A stretch of DNA of 64,000 nucleotides from Halisarca cf. caerulea (lineage: Eukaryota > Porifera > Demospongiae > Chondrillida > Halisarcidae). The stretch spans positions 3,620,318 through 3,684,317 of the forward strand of contig CAUJGJ010000444.1 in the NCBI GenBank assembly GCA_963170055.1, written 5' to 3'. The notes beneath the pieces were generated by a model. The model did not search any database. It was not told where the DNA came from and worked only from the letters and a program-made list of their open reading frames with translations. Positions 10,499 through 19,000 of this stretch are shown piece by piece. The translations under genes and the position numbers were made by a program. Each line of letters starts with the position of its first letter. Within the stretch, counting starts at the first letter, position 1.

Positions 10499-13297
10499 TT
10501 AATATCCGTAATAGTTGGGCGGTCTTCTGACACGACTTGATCTCCTTGGTATAGATACGGTTTCTTGTGTAGTTGGTTGGGCTGATAGCATTGGTGTAGT
10601 TGTGGAGGAATCTCTAGGTGTAGGAAATATGTCATCCATAGCGTCATCTGTGCTTGGGGGATTAGTAATGTGACGTATCCGAATGTGGTCTACATGGCGG
10701 CATACCATATGCCCACTATCTAGTTGAATCTTGTAGAAGACAGGACCAGTAGATGTCATGATTGTTCCTGTAAGCCAATTTGGTCCCTCTCGGAAGTTCT
10801 TTACGAAAACTTTATCTCCAGATGTAAAAGTTCGATCTTTACTCGTTCGATCATGTTGTTGTTTCTGTCTTTCTTGAGCCTTCTTGACTCTATTACTGAT
10901 GTTAAGTCTCATGAGGTCAAGGTGTGTAGTTAATCTTCTTCCCATGAGTAGTTCAGCTGGAGATGTCCCTGTAGTGGTATGAGGTGTGGTTCTGTATCGT
11001 AACAGAAATGTTACAAGCTGTTGATGGAGATCAATGGAACGATCCTTCTTCATGGCACTTTTGAATGTCTGTACGTATCGTTCAGCCAGTCCATTGGATG
11101 ATGGGTGATAAGGTGCACTGGTGATGTGTCGAATGCCATTCTGTGTCATGAATTCTTTGAATTCGGCACTAGTGAAGGCTGATCTATTGTCTGATACTAC
11201 TATTTGAGGAATGCCATGAGTGGCAAACATGACCCTTAGCTTCTGAATAGTGTTGAAAGATGTTGCTGTTGAAACGATTGCAATGTCAAGCCATTTAGAA
11301 TGGGTATCAACAACAACCAAAAACATTTTCCCCATGAACAGTCCAGCATAATCGATATGGAGACGTGTCCAAGGATGCTCTGGCCATTCCCAAGGGTGTA
11401 AAGGTGCAGTGGCAGGTGTCTTAGCATTGGTTTGACACTCGAGACACGTCTTCACTTTGTCTTCAATGTCTTTGTCAATTCCTGGCCACCAGACAACTCC
11501 TCTGGCAATTGTTTTCATCCGTGTGATGCCAGGGTGTCCTTCATGTAGCTCATCTAACACCTTTACTCTTGCGATCTCTGGTATGATAATGCAATTTTCC
11601 CAAAGTAGACATTCATCATGAAGTGAGAGTTCATCTCTCCTCCTTTCGTATGGTTGAAGTGAATCAGATGTTCCTGATGATGGCCATCCTGATAGAACCA
11701 TTTCTGAAACTTGCGATAATATCGGATCTCTGGTGGTCCACGTCTTGATTTGTTTGGCTGTAATGGGTGCCGTGCCAAGAGATGACAATGACATGATGGG
11801 CTCACCTGGTACAGAGACTGCTGTAGGGCATTTTGGCAATGGTAGTCGGCTTAGTAGGTCAGCATTGCTGTTTTCTGATCCAGGTTTGTAGACAATGTCG
11901 TAGTCATAAGCACTTAGGATTAGTGCCCACCTTTGTATGTGAGCTGAGGCCATGGTCGGGATGGGTTTCTTCTCATCGAAAATGTGTTGGAGTGGTTTGT
12001 GATCTGAATAGATGGTGAATCTGCATCCTGCAAGATATTGGTGGAATTTCTTCACTCCGAAGATAATAGCAAGGCCTTCCTTGTCCAGTTGTGCGTACTT
12101 CTTCTCTGCTGGAGCCAGAGAACGACTTGCAAATGCTATGGGCCTAACATTTCCATCTTGGAACAGGTGAGACGGAACTGCTCCAATCCCATAGGGAGAT
12201 GCATCACATTCCAGAAGAAGTTCCTGACTGGGGTCGTAGTGGGTCAGTACCTTTGATGATGCTAGTGCTAGCTTTGCCTTCTTGAAAGCTTCATCCTGCT
12301 GTTGTCCCCAAGTCCATTTCCGAGACTTCCGTAGCAACTGATAAAGGGGAGCAAGTAAGGTGGATGATTGGGGTAGGAACTTACTGTAATAATTCAGTAA
12401 ACCCAAAAATGATCTCAGTTGAGTCACATCAGTTGGTACTGGAGCTTCCATGATGGCACGAATCTTGTCAGTAGTAGGTTGGAGTCCTTCTGCTGAAATA
12501 GTATGTCCGAGGTATTCAACGGATGGTAACATGAAGGCACATTTCTTGCATTTCAGTCTGAGTTCTGCATTCTCCAGGCGATCCAGGACATTATCCAGGT
12601 TTCGAAGATGCTCCTTTTGCGTTTTCCCAGTAACTAGAATGTCATCAAGGTATACAGTAACATTGTCCAGTCCTTGAAGGATGCCTTCCATGATCCTTTG
12701 GAAAATTGCTGGTGCAGAGGCTACTCCGAAGGGTAACCTGGTATACTTGAACAAGCCTTTATGAGTGTTGATGACTACAAGCTTTTGTGATTCCTCTTCA
12801 AGGACAATCTGTTGATAAGCATGGGCCAAATCTAGCTTTGTGAAGTGCTTGCCTCCTGCGAGAGATGCGAAGAGATCTTCGATTTTTGGCAATGGGTAGG
12901 TGTCCAACTTTGTAACTTGGTTCACTGTTACACGATAGTCACCGCAAATCCTCACTGATCCATCTGGTTTGACAACCGGCACGATTGGGGCGGCCCAATC
13001 GGAAAATTCAGTACATTCCAAGATTCCACTGTCTTCAAGTCGTTTCAGTTCCTGCTCTACTTTACTTCGTAGAGAATGTGGAACAGGTCGAGCTTTATAG
13101 AACTTGGGTGATGCTTGTGGGTCAACTATTAGATTGGCAGTGGTTCCTTTTACCTTCCCAAGCTCTTCCTTGAAAACCGAGTTATGCTTGGTGAGAACAT
13201 CCTCCATCGGCTGTAGAAAGCTTGGCAATATTCTCCCATTTGAGCTTGATCTTTTGCAGCCAGTCTCTACCCAAAAGGGTTGGGCCAGTTTCGTCAA
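10499..13297 (-). CDS. pol: Gypsy pol: reverse transcriptase, RNase H, integrase
   Basis: This 932-residue open frame covers the enzymes that copy and integrate the element. The RT is near residues 60-310, with LDLAHAYQQI and the catalytic VYLDDILVTG. RNase H follows (LLECDASPYGIG). The integrase has an HHCC finger (HEGHPGITRMKTIARGVVWW...CLECQ) and a DDE core: HIDYAG, VVSDNRSAF and GLAERYVQTFK. The usual SDNG is SDNR here. A short basic C-terminal tail ends the protein. There is no internal stop. No ATG is needed: the frame overlaps the gag-protease frame by 116 nt and lies +1 to it, so expression would need a frameshift, or an indel has separated it from protease. The family assignment is certain; activity is not. 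Confidence 0.95.
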   Translation of the reverse strand: MTKLAQPFWVETGCKRSSSNGRILPSFLQPMEDVLTKHNSVFKEELGKVKGTTANLIVDPQASPKFYKARPVPHSLRSKVEQELKRLEDSGILECTEFSDWAAPIVPVVKPDGSVRICGDYRVTVNQVTKLDTYPLPKIEDLFASLAGGKHFTKLDLAHAYQQIVLEEESQKLVVINTHKGLFKYTRLPFGVASAPAIFQRIMEGILQGLDNVTVYLDDILVTGKTQKEHLRNLDNVLDRLENAELRLKCKKCAFMLPSVEYLGHTISAEGLQPTTDKIRAIMEAPVPTDVTQLRSFLGLLNYYSKFLPQSSTLLAPLYQLLRKSRKWTWGQQQDEAFKKAKLALASSKVLTHYDPSQELLLECDASPYGIGAVPSHLFQDGNVRPIAFASRSLAPAEKKYAQLDKEGLAIIFGVKKFHQYLAGCRFTIYSDHKPLQHIFDEKKPIPTMASAHIQRWALILSAYDYDIVYKPGSENSNADLLSRLPLPKCPTAVSVPGEPIMSLSSLGTAPITAKQIKTWTTRDPILSQVSEMVLSGWPSSGTSDSLQPYERRRDELSLHDECLLWENCIIIPEIARVKVLDELHEGHPGITRMKTIARGVVWWPGIDKDIEDKVKTCLECQTNAKTPATAPLHPWEWPEHPWTRLHIDYAGLFMGKMFLVVVDTHSKWLDIAIVSTATSFNTIQKLRVMFATHGIPQIVVSDNRSAFTSAEFKEFMTQNGIRHITSAPYHPSSNGLAERYVQTFKSAMKKDRSIDLHQQLVTFLLRYRTTPHTTTGTSPAELLMGRRLTTHLDLMRLNISNRVKKAQERQKQQHDRTSKDRTFTSGDKVFVKNFREGPNWLTGTIMTSTGPVFYKIQLDSGHMVCRHVDHIRIRHITNPPSTDDAMDDIFPTPRDSSTTTPMLSAQPTTQETVSIPRRSSRVRRPPNYYGY

Positions 13298-14372
13298 CTA
13301 TTGTCAGGCTCAGATCTACAGTTTGGTCTTGGTACTTCACTCGCACGTTGATGCTTCCACAAACTGCTAATTGTTCACCAGTATATGTCTTGAGGTGTAC
13401 ATTGGACGGATGTAGCCTTGGTGGATCAGTTTTCCACGTTGCCTTGAATGTAGTAGCACTCATCACGGAGAGTGACGCGCCTGTATCTACCTCCATAGGT
13501 ATATCTATTCCATTTAGGTTGAGTATAACTTGGATCGGTGGTGCTCTAGGGGTGGTCATACGAAAGAGTACGTCGTCTTCCTCGGGTTCATCCATGGAGA
13601 AGAGATGCGTATTCTTCTTGGTCTGGCTTCTTTCTGGTTGTGGTCTGTTTGTTGATCTGGTCTTACTCCGACACACTTTAGCAAGGTGTCCTTTCTTTTT
13701 GCAACTGTGGCATTCAGCCCCCTTGAATGGACAATTTCTAACAAGATGCTGGGTGTTTCTGCAGCGGTAGCAGACATGATTGCTCTTTGTTTTCTGTGGT
13801 GGCTTCTGTCCTCCACGGTGGAGAGTCATGACTGTGGGTTTCTGCTGTCCTTGCAAACTCTGGGCATTTTTCTCAGCTAGCTCTGTAGCTTGGCAAAGAT
13901 CAAATGCCTTTGTGAAAGTCAAATCTATTTCAGCCAGTAAGCGACGCTGAAGTCTGCTGTCTCGAATTCCGCAAACTAGGCGATCACGCAACATGTCTTC
14001 CAGGGTGTCTCCAAACTGGCAATGTTCCGAAATCTTGCGCAAATCAGCAATAAACTCTGCTACTGTCTCTCCTTCTTTCTGAGAACGTGTGTTGAAATTG
14101 AAACGCTGAACTATTGCTGAGGGTGCTGGACTATAGTGCTGTCTAACAAGCTCGACTATGTCCTTGAAGGGGTGTTCTGCAGGTTTCTTTGGGGCTGTCA
14201 AATTTCTAATCACTTGGTAAGTTGATGCTCCACATGCACTTAAGAGGATGGCACGTTGTTTGCCATCATCCATAATGTCGTTGGCGAGAAAGTAATGTTC
14301 CAGACGCTCAATGTATAAATTCCAGTCTTCTCATCCTTGTTTAAAAGGTGCAAGCCTCCCATGAGTCGTCAT
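13182..14372 (-). CDS. gag: Gypsy gag-protease with one in-frame stop
   Basis: From the ATG at 14372 the frame codes for capsid-like sequence, broken by a TGA at 14331-14333 and continuing ELDW-type gag sequence (YIERLEHYFLAND). Two CCHC zinc knuckles follow (CYRCRNTQHLVRNC and CHSCKKKGHLAKVC), then an aspartic protease with EVDTGASLSVM and LLGRDWL. The stop sits in GGA TGA GAA, one C-to-T step from an Arg codon, which suggests CpG decay. The frame ends at 13182, past the start of the pol frame. Gag and protease lie in one frame and the break falls between protease and RT, which is unusual for gypsy elements and more likely an indel. Confidence 0.92.
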
Positions 14373-14732: not shown

Positions 14733-15229
14733 TACACAGGCTCATTATAGTGTGTCACGCAAAATGGCTGTCGCTTCGAAGTGGCTAAGATATTAGCGCA
14801 TTTTTAGCTCAAGACAATACATTTCCTCACTTTTTAAAATCGCTGTGTGTTTTATTGTTATTTATCGAAATATTGGTGTACAGTTTAAGCATATACTTTG
14901 TTTCAAAAAGGAAAATTAGCTTTGAATAAGGTACTCTTTTTGTAGCAAATGGCAAAGTCCAGACGTGTAGATGGTCTCTAAGAGTCACAAGATTGGTATC
15001 AAATGAAAGAGTGGTTAATCGGTGTACCTGGTTATGTCTTCTCCGCTCACGCTATGAATGTACACAATAGTACTTTGAAACGTTCGATATCTTCTTTCAA
15101 CGATATAGGTATCATCTACACGTCCAGATCACATGGTCTTTACGAGCGAGGCTTCAAAGCGGCCATTTAATTAAACAATTATCATTAATAAAAATAGGCA
15201 CACATGCACACTGCCTTATGCATATACCG

Positions 15230-15400
15230 TATATTTTCTAAAAATTCGTCATTCTAAAGATTCGTCACCCTCGCTGCTAGGTTAGTTGGTCTTCTAAAAG
15301 CGACGAAAAGGTCTCACTTCTAAGGTTTCGTCATATTTTCTAAAGTTTCGTCACACCCTGACCAAGGGGTCCGCGTGACTTCTATTGTTTCGTCATATTA
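15230..15400. repeat. TTCGTCA-rich repeat block upstream of the pogo transposase
   Basis: Several spaced copies of (A)TTCGTCA or TTTCGTCA, for example at 15245, 15261 and 15328. They resemble the ends of the old element at 4753-5782. A transposase-binding role is possible but only inferred. Confidence 0.4.
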
Positions 15401-15450
15401 CGCACCTGCAGCGGAAGTCTTTTCTTGCTTCCTCGTGTTCGAATCCATGT

Positions 15451-17190
15451 ATGGATAATGATTCACCGTCTGCACGAAGTTCCCCGACACTGCTCGCTTC
15501 CCCAAGGCTACCTAGCACACCACCAATCCCAGCAACTCCGATACGTGAAGAGAACGACTTCGACGAAGAAACAGACGGACAATGGAGCCCTTGCCAAGAT
15601 GATATCGTTTGCATCAGTAGCTCTTCTTCGGAATCTTCACCGCCTCGGCCAAAGAAGCTGATTACTGATTTTTTCAATCGGACTTCGGCAGTTCAGGAGA
15701 AATCCATGCCCAGCTTTCTTTGCCAGTTCAATCCTCTGACAAACGCACAGAAATCGCTACCTCCTTGCAGCGTTAACAAAGAGCCTGGTCAGGCCCAACA
15801 GCCAGCTATGCCATGTTCTTCATCAAATTCAGCAGGCAATAAAGAGAAGAAAAAACGCAGTGCAGTGTATAAAACATATACACTAAGACAAAAGTTGGAG
15901 GTACTAGACTATGTGAAATCGTTCAGTGAAAGCCAGGCAGCAAATCATTTTGGCATCCCTCGAACCACAATTTCATCATGGAAAGGGATAAATCTTCAGC
16001 CAAAACACCATCCAAATGCTGATCCAAAAACAAAAGGGAAACACCTGGTCAAAGGGTCAGGACGTCCTTTGTCATACCCTCAGCATGTAGAAGAACAGAT
16101 AGTTGCGTGGGTTTTACAGATGCGGGATTTGCAGCTGCCAATTCAGAGAAAGGACATCATTCGCCAAGCCAAGCGCTTAATTTCACCCCACCAATCTAAC
16201 TTTCAAGCATCAGCCGGGTGGATGGACAAGTTTTTGCTTCGTAATTCCCTCACTTTGAGGAAAACTACATCAATTCAGCAAAAGCTGCCACCACAACTGG
16301 AGAAACAGCTGGCAACTTTCATGGGTGAACTGAAGACCATTTGGGAATACCACAAATTTCCTTTGGCCTACATTCTCAACGTGGATGAAACGCCTATATG
16401 GTTTGACATGCTACGGGGCTACACAGTAGCAGAAAAGGGAGCAAAACAAGTGAGGATTCGTGGGACGGGAGCAGACAAGAGGAGGATATCCATTGTGTTA
16501 ACAGCATCTGCTACGGAGACTATGCTAAAGCCCATGATTATATTCAAAGGAAAGTCGCCCCGCTGCATAAAGGACGTCAAAGCTGACCGGAATAAAGTTG
16601 TCGTTGTGTACCAACAGAAAGCATATATGGATTAAGCCATCATGTTGAAATGGGTAAAGAATGTACTTCTTGATTACACCAAGAAAGTACATACTCTGCT
16701 GGTTTTTGATGCTTTTCACCCACATCAGCATGAGACTGTCATCGATGCATTGAGGCAAGGGAATGTTCAGACATCCATAATACCTCCTGGTTGTACCAGC
16801 AAAGTACAACCTGTTGATGTCTCCTTGAATAAACCCTTCAAGGCCATTCTAAAGCACAAATGGGAGGAATACATGCAGGACATGGCTGAGAAGGAAGGTG
16901 CTCATCAGAAAGTCCCAACGCCAACTAAGCAATCCGTGGTAGAATGGGTCATTGAGGCTAATGATTATCTGGCCAGCAATGCTGCTATGGTTTCAAAGTC
17001 ATTCAAGGTTTGCGGGATCAGCAATGCCTTGGATGGCACAGAGAATGATCTGATACATTGCGCCAAAGAGCTCCCTACACTTGACTTGCCATATGGTACA
17101 GAGCATGACAGTGATGAGAACTTGGAGGACCCATTCAAAAGTGATTCAGAATCAAGTGATGCGTCCTCAGAATGTGAAGATTCTGACTGA
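15451..17190 (+). pseudogene. Pogo/Jerky-type DDE transposase with one nonsense codon
   Basis: It cuts and pastes the host element. The first in-frame ATG (15451) opens a Ser/Pro-rich, acidic N-terminus. A psq-type helix-turn-helix follows (YTLRQKLEVLDYVKSFSESQ), then a CENP-B-type DNA-binding domain (QIVAWVLQMRDLQLPIQRKD; ASAGWMDKFLLR). The DDE_1 core has all three acidic residues: NVDETPIWFD, LLVFDAFHPHQ and VQPVDVSLNKPFK. The tail is acidic and Ser-rich (SDSESSDASSECEDSD). A single TAA at 16633-16635 splits the frame in the catalytic domain between KAYMD and a following MLKWVKNVL; the flanks stay in frame, so one substitution killed this copy. Total length about 580 codons, normal for Tigger/Jerky proteins. 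Confidence 0.93.
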
Positions 17191-17465
17191 GTATTGGGCG
17201 AAACTCAGAATGCACTGTGGCAGTGTATTGTAACAGTTGTGTATCTGATTGTGATTTGCTAGTATTGTGTTCATTTTTTCACGCAAATGTTTCATGGTTT
17301 GAATAGTCACTGTAATGCTTAACACGTGCATGGCTGTTTTGCATGATTAATAGCAATGATTGGTACAATAAAACTTCATTGATGTTTCATGTACATATTA
17401 ATAGATACGTATGCAGTTAAAATTCTGTTAGCTACGTTTATGTATGCAACATGTCCCATGGCTGC

Positions 17466-17894
17466 CTACTTGCCTGCCAAGATTTCCTTCAACCTTTTGA
17501 TATGCTTCCTTTTACCAGTGAAACGAAGCTTGCAAGGCACTTCCATGCCTCCCGCTTCTCGACAGTACTGTCTAGGACCAGTTATACAGGCTTCTATAGA
17601 CCCACCGTGCTGCAAGAAGTAGTAAGATGTTCTGGCGATTTCCCGTGGCAGATGACCCACTACAGTCCCGTCCTGGAAACAGGCAATAGCAAAGCGGTCG
17701 TGTTCATTTCGAGGTTCATGCATACAGAAAAGGGTATCCCCGACTGTAGGAGTCCAAATTTTGATGACTTGGCCATACGGTTCCTTGCGCTTTGTTGAAA
17801 GGAGATCAGCAAGTCTTTTGTAGGCAACTATAGCAGATTTGCCCATTCCACCAAAAAGCGGCCATTTAATGGTGATGTCAGTAACTATGAGCAA
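17466..17894 (-). CDS. Small HIRAN-domain protein
   Basis: This is an intact 142-residue frame with an ATG start and no defect. HIRAN domains bind DNA ends or stalled forks in HLTF/Rad5-type proteins. Here the domain stands alone: KWPLFGGMGKSAIVAYKRL, then VGDTLFCMHEPRNEHDRFAI and VGHLPREIARTSYYFL, ending in a Lys-rich tail (KRKHIKRLKEILAGK). I recall similar stand-alone proteins in sponge and cnidarian gene sets, often unnamed. It lies tail-to-tail with the pogo transposase, inside the same TIRs, so it travels with the transposon. A role in handling transposon ends or repair of the donor site is inference only. Confidence 0.75.
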   Translation of the reverse strand: MLIVTDITIKWPLFGGMGKSAIVAYKRLADLLSTKRKEPYGQVIKIWTPTVGDTLFCMHEPRNEHDRFAIACFQDGTVVGHLPREIARTSYYFLQHGGSIEACITGPRQYCREAGGMEVPCKLRFTGKRKHIKRLKEILAGK

Positions 17895-18517
17895 TTACGT
17901 CATCTGTATGCTTGCTTTTGGCTCTCGCGCCGCATGGAGTCCTTCTGAAAATCCTCCAACATTCGATCGGATGCCATTCTAACTTCTATTGGACGGTTAT
18001 AATTTTCTCAGCTAAGGAAATCCGTTTATTAAGCTTCAGTTCTGATCAATTTACGATGGATTCGTAAAGTGAATTGGTGAGTTTAAACCTCGATCGTTTT
18101 TGTTTTGAAAGCCCCTTTAAGTTCGTTTATTGCTTATGTGTACCTTCCGAATCTTCCCAAAATGTGCCGCACGTGTTACTTCGGTGTTGATACTTCTTTA
18201 GAATAAGCTTAATGTTTGTGCGCAAGTACAACATTTTCATTTATTGTGACTTTTTTTACGAATCTCACATCTGCGAAGCTTACTTCTATGTATGTGACTT
18301 GAATTTCTTGCATTTTCACGAGGAAAAAGTTGTGTTTTTACTTTTTGGTTTGCAAAATGTACGTATTTCTACTGAGCGCTATGTACGTAGTGACGCATTA
18401 CCACGTTTACAGATGAACAAAAGTGATGTAGGCAGAAAAGTGACAAATTCTTGAGATTCCTGAACTTAGTCACCTAAAATCCCCATTCCCTGAGACCAAC
18501 TATAATGCCTCTGTGTA

Positions 18518-19000
18518 CTGGTGGTGAAGAACATCCCTGCCTTAAGCCATTCCTAACTTCAATGTTGTCTGTGTTAGTGCTATCAACTCTCACTTGGACA
18601 TTCATACCTTCGTGGAACAAACTTGTGATATTTAGCATTGCTGGTGGAACTCCATTCTTCTGTAGTATACTCCATAGGGCATTTCTAGATACAGAGTTGT
18701 ATGCTTTCTTTAGGTCAACAAATAGAATATACGTACAGTGAGTCCTCATGTCTCTAGTCTTCTCCATTATCTGGCGAACTGCAAATATCATATCTACACA
18801 TCCAGACCTTTATGAAAGCCACATTGTGATTCCGGGAGTACATTCTCTGCAATGGACTGTAAACGTTCTAGTATGATTCTTGCAAAAATCTTGCCAACTG
18901 CATCAAGTAGGCTTATTCCCCTCCATTTGTCACAAAGTTTGAAATCCCCTTTCTGCCAGCTTTGCCACATTAGCTACCCAATCCTCTTTAGCAGCATTGA
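18518..19000 (-). pseudogene. LINE reverse transcriptase, N-terminal half (broken)
   Basis: Minus strand: WQKGDFKLCDKWRGISLLD, ENVLPESQCGFHKG, then after a one-base frameshift MIFAVRQIMEKTRDMRTHC, FVDLKKAYNSVSRNALW (the first catalytic Asp) and NGLRQGC. It ends exactly at the TA where the pogo-type element inserted and continues at 14732. It is an APE-type LINE with similarity to families common in marine invertebrates. Confidence 0.88.

Follow-up and report, generated by a model that had tools for sequence, protein, structure and literature searches.

A pogo-superfamily transposon with a HIRAN gene beside its transposase gene, within a nest of repeats in the sponge Halisarca cf. caerulea

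We analysed a window of 64,000 nucleotides (the whole stretch, from contig CAUJGJ010000444.1 of Halisarca cf. caerulea) and found that the interval 14735-18515 is a nest of several elements, not a single transposon. The innermost element belongs to a diverse group with complete copies elsewhere in the genome, in which a terminal inverted repeat (TIR) is followed by a HIRAN gene, a transposase gene lying tail to tail with it and a second TIR, with a duplicated TA target outside; the two genes move together. As an explanation of the whole, we consider it very probable that the interval is a three-deep nest whose innermost member is a two-gene pogo-superfamily transposon, with HIRAN as its putative accessory.

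The outer limits of the interval agree with an earlier note on this DNA. End repeats (CACAG..CATTATAGT) are present at 14735 and 18515 with a TA outside each (14733-14734 and 18516-18517), and taking out 14735-18517, with one TA left, rejoins the frame of a LINE reverse transcriptase across the junction of PPV and LFNLFFSAIVSNWRERCPG. A piece of this interrupted gene, identified by a profile match and the restored frame, lies at 18518-18809 on the minus strand and resumes below 14734. The note had taken the repeats for the ends of a pogo-like transposon bearing both genes. However, a search of the sponge's own 194-Mb genome gave at least 40 matches to each end, and when 27 loci were fetched and aligned (24 other copies and three second halves of the same copies), window position 15171 joined 17855 directly in 23 of the 24 other copies. 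The match of the 24th (L007) ends at 15065. None of the 23 uninterrupted copies has the genes at the 15172-17854 site, so copies with the same ends and no HIRAN gene, which the note had named as evidence against itself, do occur. The ends at 14735 and 18515 belong to a non-autonomous element (MITE) of ~1.2 kb that nearly always lacks both genes. We rejected them as termini of the gene-bearing element because of these gene-free copies and a separate TIR at 15225. The left part of the MITE, with its TIR (CACAGGCTCATTATAGT...), occupies 14735-15171 and the right part, also with a TIR, 17855-18515, both on the plus strand and both defined by genome copies and the end repeats. Most MITE copies have ~120 bp at 15014/15016 that are absent from the window copy. 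Another copy (C369:1759669-1763626, loci L005 and L017) is split by a ~2.8-kb insert with a DDE_1 match, a 456-aa open frame and no listed HIRAN; the insert is either the autonomous partner of the MITE or another nested element. The window also contains a Gypsy-like retrotransposon at 10499-14330 on the minus strand, whose pol ORF encodes reverse transcriptase, RNase H and integrase; a gag-like ORF lies upstream of it.

Inside the MITE, comparison with three LINE loci assigns two minus-strand pieces to a single LINE family, 15172-15224 as its 3' tail and ~17763-17854 as its coding end; the tail is identical at 44 of 47 bases to L066 and at 33 of 35 to L061 and L062. Because a 16-bp duplication, AAAGCGGCCATTTAAT, lies on either side of the two pieces (15156-15171 and 17855-17870), as expected for such an event, we read them as a 5'-truncated LINE insertion; the duplicated sequence is single in uninterrupted MITE copies. 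The TIR TACCGTATATTTTCTAAAAATTCGTCA marks the true start of the inner element at 15225. What remains of this element extends on the plus strand to 17761, its HIRAN-side end being deleted at about 17761/17762, and the window copy has no second TIR. The MITE would have entered the LINE reverse-transcriptase gene, the 5'-truncated LINE the MITE, and the pogo-superfamily transposon this second LINE. The model first proposed, a single pogo-like transposon at 14735-18515 with both genes and with the 1.2-kb copies as internal-deletion derivatives, gains something from the fact that MITEs often arise by internal deletion and from the 16-bp repeat at the junction, which could have been microhomology. 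We regard it as very improbable, since LINE sequence separates the inner TIR from the MITE, the gene unit has at 15225 a TIR of its own, found on both ends of complete copies elsewhere, and one such copy (L030) sits in a member of this MITE family at a different site and is oppositely oriented. The transposase and the HIRAN match do lie within the interval, as the note had stated, but not as the cargo of one transposon ending at 14735 and 18515.

The nested window copy is decayed. Its transposase gene (15451-17190, plus strand) matches the Pfam profile DDE_1 in two pieces (E = 0.0023 and 1.2e-11) and HTH_Tnp_Tc5, a CENP-B-type DNA-binding part (E = 6.1e-12), and has a DD35D catalytic triad. 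The stop that had been seen inside it is an in-frame TAA at 16633-16635. Profile search of the 142-residue protein against the HIRAN family, a check suggested earlier, matched PF08797 at 35.6 bits (E = 8.6e-9; curated cut-off, 24.7). The frame itself had been called intact, but it is chimeric, with residues 1-13 from the MITE, ~14-44 from LINE coding sequence (identical at 96 of 99 bases to L062, 96 of 99 to L061 and 94 of 96 to L066) and only 45-142 from HIRAN. We rejected it as an intact HIRAN gene, since ~21 N-terminal residues are missing; the complete sister copy L030 starts with those 21 (MSDEF..RGHHVYQE). The HIRAN remnant (17466-17762, minus strand; 98 residues and a stop) has lost its N-terminal strand as well as the RG-HVY motif, which is invariant, and the LINE coding-end fragment (17763-17854) stands in frame ahead of it. 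With this remnant fused to LINE and MITE sequence and a stop in the transposase frame, both genes of the window copy are dead.

Complete copies show the form of the element. L030 (C369:4602629-4605922) is 2,775 bases long, has the TIR of 15225 on both ends and is 95% alike to the window copy over 1.8 kb. It is inserted, with reversed orientation, in a different member of the MITE family, where it represents a second, separate insertion event of this pogo family; the TA there is a target duplication because uninterrupted MITE copies read AAGTTAGTTTATTG at the site. Furthermore, no difference was seen among four copies (L054, L055, L057 and L056/L059) over the 2,049 bases compared, and these copies lie in different flanks. 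Perfect 25-bp TIRs at 200 and 2885 enclose both genes in L059, and TIRs are also present in L071 and L073. The intact L059 transposase matches DDE_1 at E = 9.9e-26 and HTH_Tnp_Tc5 at 5.8e-14; the latter match is weaker in L068 (0.0082, below the cut-off). HIRAN scored 29.1 bits in both L059 and L071 and slightly below the cut-off of 24.7 in L068 and L070. A triad motif search, in which 14 of 27 rows gave no motif, found DD35D in the window and seven clade-A rows including L079, DD36D in L073, DD35D in two rows of the sister clade B and DD32D in three rows of a Tigger-like type C. DDE_1, HTH_Tnp_Tc5, a DDxD triad (spacing 29-56), TIRs and TA duplication, the marks of the pogo superfamily, are all found in these elements.

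We measured the linkage of the two genes with one list of HIRAN matches (window HIRAN as query, best 150 of 582 candidates scored) and one of transposase matches (C-terminal transposase part as query, 145 matches among the best 150 of 221 candidates). For the 150 HIRAN matches listed, a transposase within 3 kb was convergent in 94, on the same strand in two and divergent in none, with 54 unpaired; the median convergent gap among the matches listed was 306 bp. Conversely, 104 of the 145 listed transposase matches, and 44 of the best 50, had a HIRAN neighbour within 3 kb; with 33 weaker HIRAN matches from a second query added, the numbers became 110 of 145 and 45 of the best 50. In 1,000 random placements of the 150-match HIRAN list, for which some contig sizes were approximated, the expectation was a mean of 4.0 and a maximum of 12 of 145. 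That the HIRAN gene travels with a pogo-type transposase, as had been proposed, is thus borne out by linkage far above chance, a single geometry and complete copies with both TIRs. The window is itself a nest, which would suit the view that the two genes adjoin merely through repeats nesting in the same regions. We rejected chance or repeat nesting as the cause, and leave it practically no probability, since 94 convergent pairs stand against two same-strand and no divergent ones at a median gap of 306 bp among the matches listed, ~4 of 145 were expected by random placement, and TIRs common to both genes enclose them.

The pairing is not universal. No transposase from either list lay within 4 kb of 45 of the 150 listed HIRAN matches. 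Of 122 DDE_1 matches outside the first transposase list, 111 had no listed HIRAN match within 4 kb, and the remainder had a divergent (nine, five of them at 771-808 bp), convergent (one) or same-strand (one) HIRAN; because the HIRAN query came from the window, this set is only a partial negative control. Six HIRAN matches (C247:1153861, C241:1916129, C16:171805, C105:504008, C412:3740370 and C325:501) all have a 102-aa open frame, most with an in-frame TGA, and no listed transposase nearby. They are perhaps another HIRAN-bearing repeat.

Two sister forms were found. Five convergent loci that are more remote (L067, L068, L069, L070 and L074) encode a HIRAN protein with a C-terminal Ulp1-like part, with Peptidase_C48 over the Pfam cut-off in L069, L070 and L074 and weaker in the other two. 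The catalytic residues H291, D308, Q341 and C347 of the fused protein are kept at ≥90%, and the predicted structure of L074 (mean pLDDT, 84.2; pTM, 0.56) matches SENP/Ulp1 structures and the HIRAN of HLTF. In this sister clade (B), HIRAN is fused to a SENP/Ulp1-like domain. In the type C elements (L076, L077 and L078), HIRAN is head-to-head with a DD32D transposase within TIRs (TACAGTGGAA) that start ACAGTGGAA and that may resemble the Tigger TIR; the triad spacing of Tigger is DD29-36D. A tree of 24 transposases was built from own-genome rows, L067 and L074 being left out as short. In it, both convergent forms grouped with L079, which lacks HIRAN (97/97); the divergent form fell into a separate group, rows without HIRAN stood between the two, and the HIRAN label needed three changes on the unrooted tree. 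Because three Tigger-like elements carry HIRAN head-to-head, the history fits two gains with a single loss, or else a single gain with more losses. L079 (C418:401000-404900) has an intact 589-aa clade-A transposase, no detectable HIRAN and an adjoining ORF that looks protein-kinase-like by eye; it is a HIRAN loss or a domesticated gene. L071 combines a clade-A transposase with a clade-B-type HIRAN (LPQGG) in which no Ulp1 part was found, a possible gene swap between elements.

Distances between HIRAN proteins and between their transposases were correlated (r = 0.90 for 35 loci, left after dropping rows with <85 HIRAN or <280 transposase positions; 0.80 for 19 representatives, left after dropping near-copies; 0.83 for 11 of clade A). 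For clade B alone, with six loci, r was 0.49 (p = 0.057). The dN/dS of HIRAN was 0.08-0.11 in three distant pairs in which dS was near saturation, and that of the transposase 0.06 and 0.07 where computable (pairs L046-L058 and L043-L047, which look misframed, were left out). In younger pairs the HIRAN values were 0.29-1.28; in the L059 group they were 0.66 (L053-L059) and 0.89 (L049-L059), and those of the transposase 0.13 and 0.16. Because dN/dS is low in distant pairs and high in young ones, these estimates support long-term but not short-term constraint on HIRAN. The weak constraint in young copies, the intact transposase of L079 without HIRAN and the 111 of 122 DDE_1 matches outside the clade without a listed HIRAN nearby are what could be expected of a passenger, captured once and tolerated with no role in transposition. 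We consider such a passenger unlikely, as dN/dS is low across distant pairs, the two genes covary tightly, HIRAN is retained beside 45 of the best 50 transposase matches, and it also occurs in a second transposase lineage in the opposite arrangement.

The HIRAN fold is known from DNA-repair enzymes and is present in the transposon protein, and a role as accessory factor of transposition is plausible. The transposase would cut at the TIRs, and HIRAN may bind DNA ends or branched intermediates during excision or insertion, where it could steer end repair or keep fork-remodelling enzymes of the host, such as HLTF, away from the ends. When fused, HIRAN would also direct a SUMO protease there. An alternative of a similarly tentative standing to the general role proposed below is counter-defence, in which the stand-alone HIRAN competes with a host HLTF/Rad5-type enzyme for DNA ends, guarding the transposase-DNA complex or the integration, and the Ulp1-like part removes SUMO from factors of the host. 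According to PMC11237066, the isolated HIRAN of HLTF acts as a dominant negative that blocks HLTF removal of post-cleavage Cas9, and the N90A-N91A variant does so far less. Consistent with counter-defence, the counterpart of HLTF N91 is conserved in 69, that of D94 in 70 and that of H110 in all of 71 rows. Against both counter-defence and the accessory role, no counterpart of R71 is evident: in a locally uncertain alignment, R71 aligns with D/E and with no basic residue in the transposon family, and an R71E change in HLTF prevents 3'-OH binding according to PMC11366124. The accessory role is further countered by the weak HIRAN constraint in young copies, by L079, by the 45 of 150 listed HIRAN matches with no listed transposase within 4 kb, by the low correlation within clade B and by the mixed gene pair of L071. 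Returning to the accessory role, we advance only as a possibility its widest form, in which HIRAN is a general pogo-superfamily accessory, gained at least twice (tail-to-tail with DD35D; head-to-head with Tigger-like DD32D) and once joined to a SUMO protease, and would act at cut ends by recruiting host fork remodellers or competing with them, tying transposition to fork repair and SUMO.

Protein searches gave five relatives for the window protein, 4,433 passing E = 0.001 for the family profile (5,368 candidates) and 450 at the same threshold for the fused form (3,453 candidates). These numbers, which concern the proteins and not their gene neighbours, suggest that transposon genes may account for many of the unnamed HIRAN proteins of animal-like genomes. 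Pattern matches to the HIRAN family in viral contigs (13) and prokaryote contigs (11) yielded none that was confirmed. A sequence search of the PDB with one HIRAN gave no matches, and a profile search of the PDB found HLTF at E = 0.0014; Foldseek and VIA gave no other convincing family among the matches listed. In the openly licensed literature we found no description of pogo elements that contain HIRAN, which does not imply absence in print.

By the usual description, a pogo-type cut-and-paste transposon needs one transposase. If HIRAN is a persistent partner, it would, together with its SUMO-protease-fused form, be a second protein through which these elements handle broken ends, and control of host fork remodelling and SUMO signalling by transposons would become open to test. 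Two surveys of pogo elements (PMC7325037 and PMC7386202) do not use the word HIRAN in their main text. According to the second, the pogo superfamily of IS630-Tc1-mariner includes Passer, Tigger, Fot and others and shares with the present elements DDE_1 with HTH_Tnp_Tc5, a DDxD triad and TA duplication, at 1.2-5.2 kb; its members have one or two ORFs encoding transposases, whereas the present elements have HIRAN or HIRAN-Ulp1 as their second gene. The ciliate Tec/TBE elements are likewise Tc1/mariner-type with further ORFs, one on the other strand, but the extra ORF named in PMC7325037 is a site-specific recombinase, not HIRAN. In human HLTF (4XZF, 4S0N and 5BNH), HIRAN is joined to a SNF2 motor and a RING domain; the transposon HIRAN, in contrast, is stand-alone or part of an Ulp1-like fusion and has a conserved C-terminal GG-E-PC extension and no evident R71. 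Ginger1 and Mutator-like elements with Ulp1 or OTU, as PMC2836005 describes them, also carry a SUMO/ubiquitin protease-like domain on a DNA transposon. In Ginger1 the protease is the C-terminal part of the transposase (PMC2836005), whereas the sponge elements have it joined to HIRAN and encoded apart from their pogo-type transposase, by a convergent neighbouring gene.
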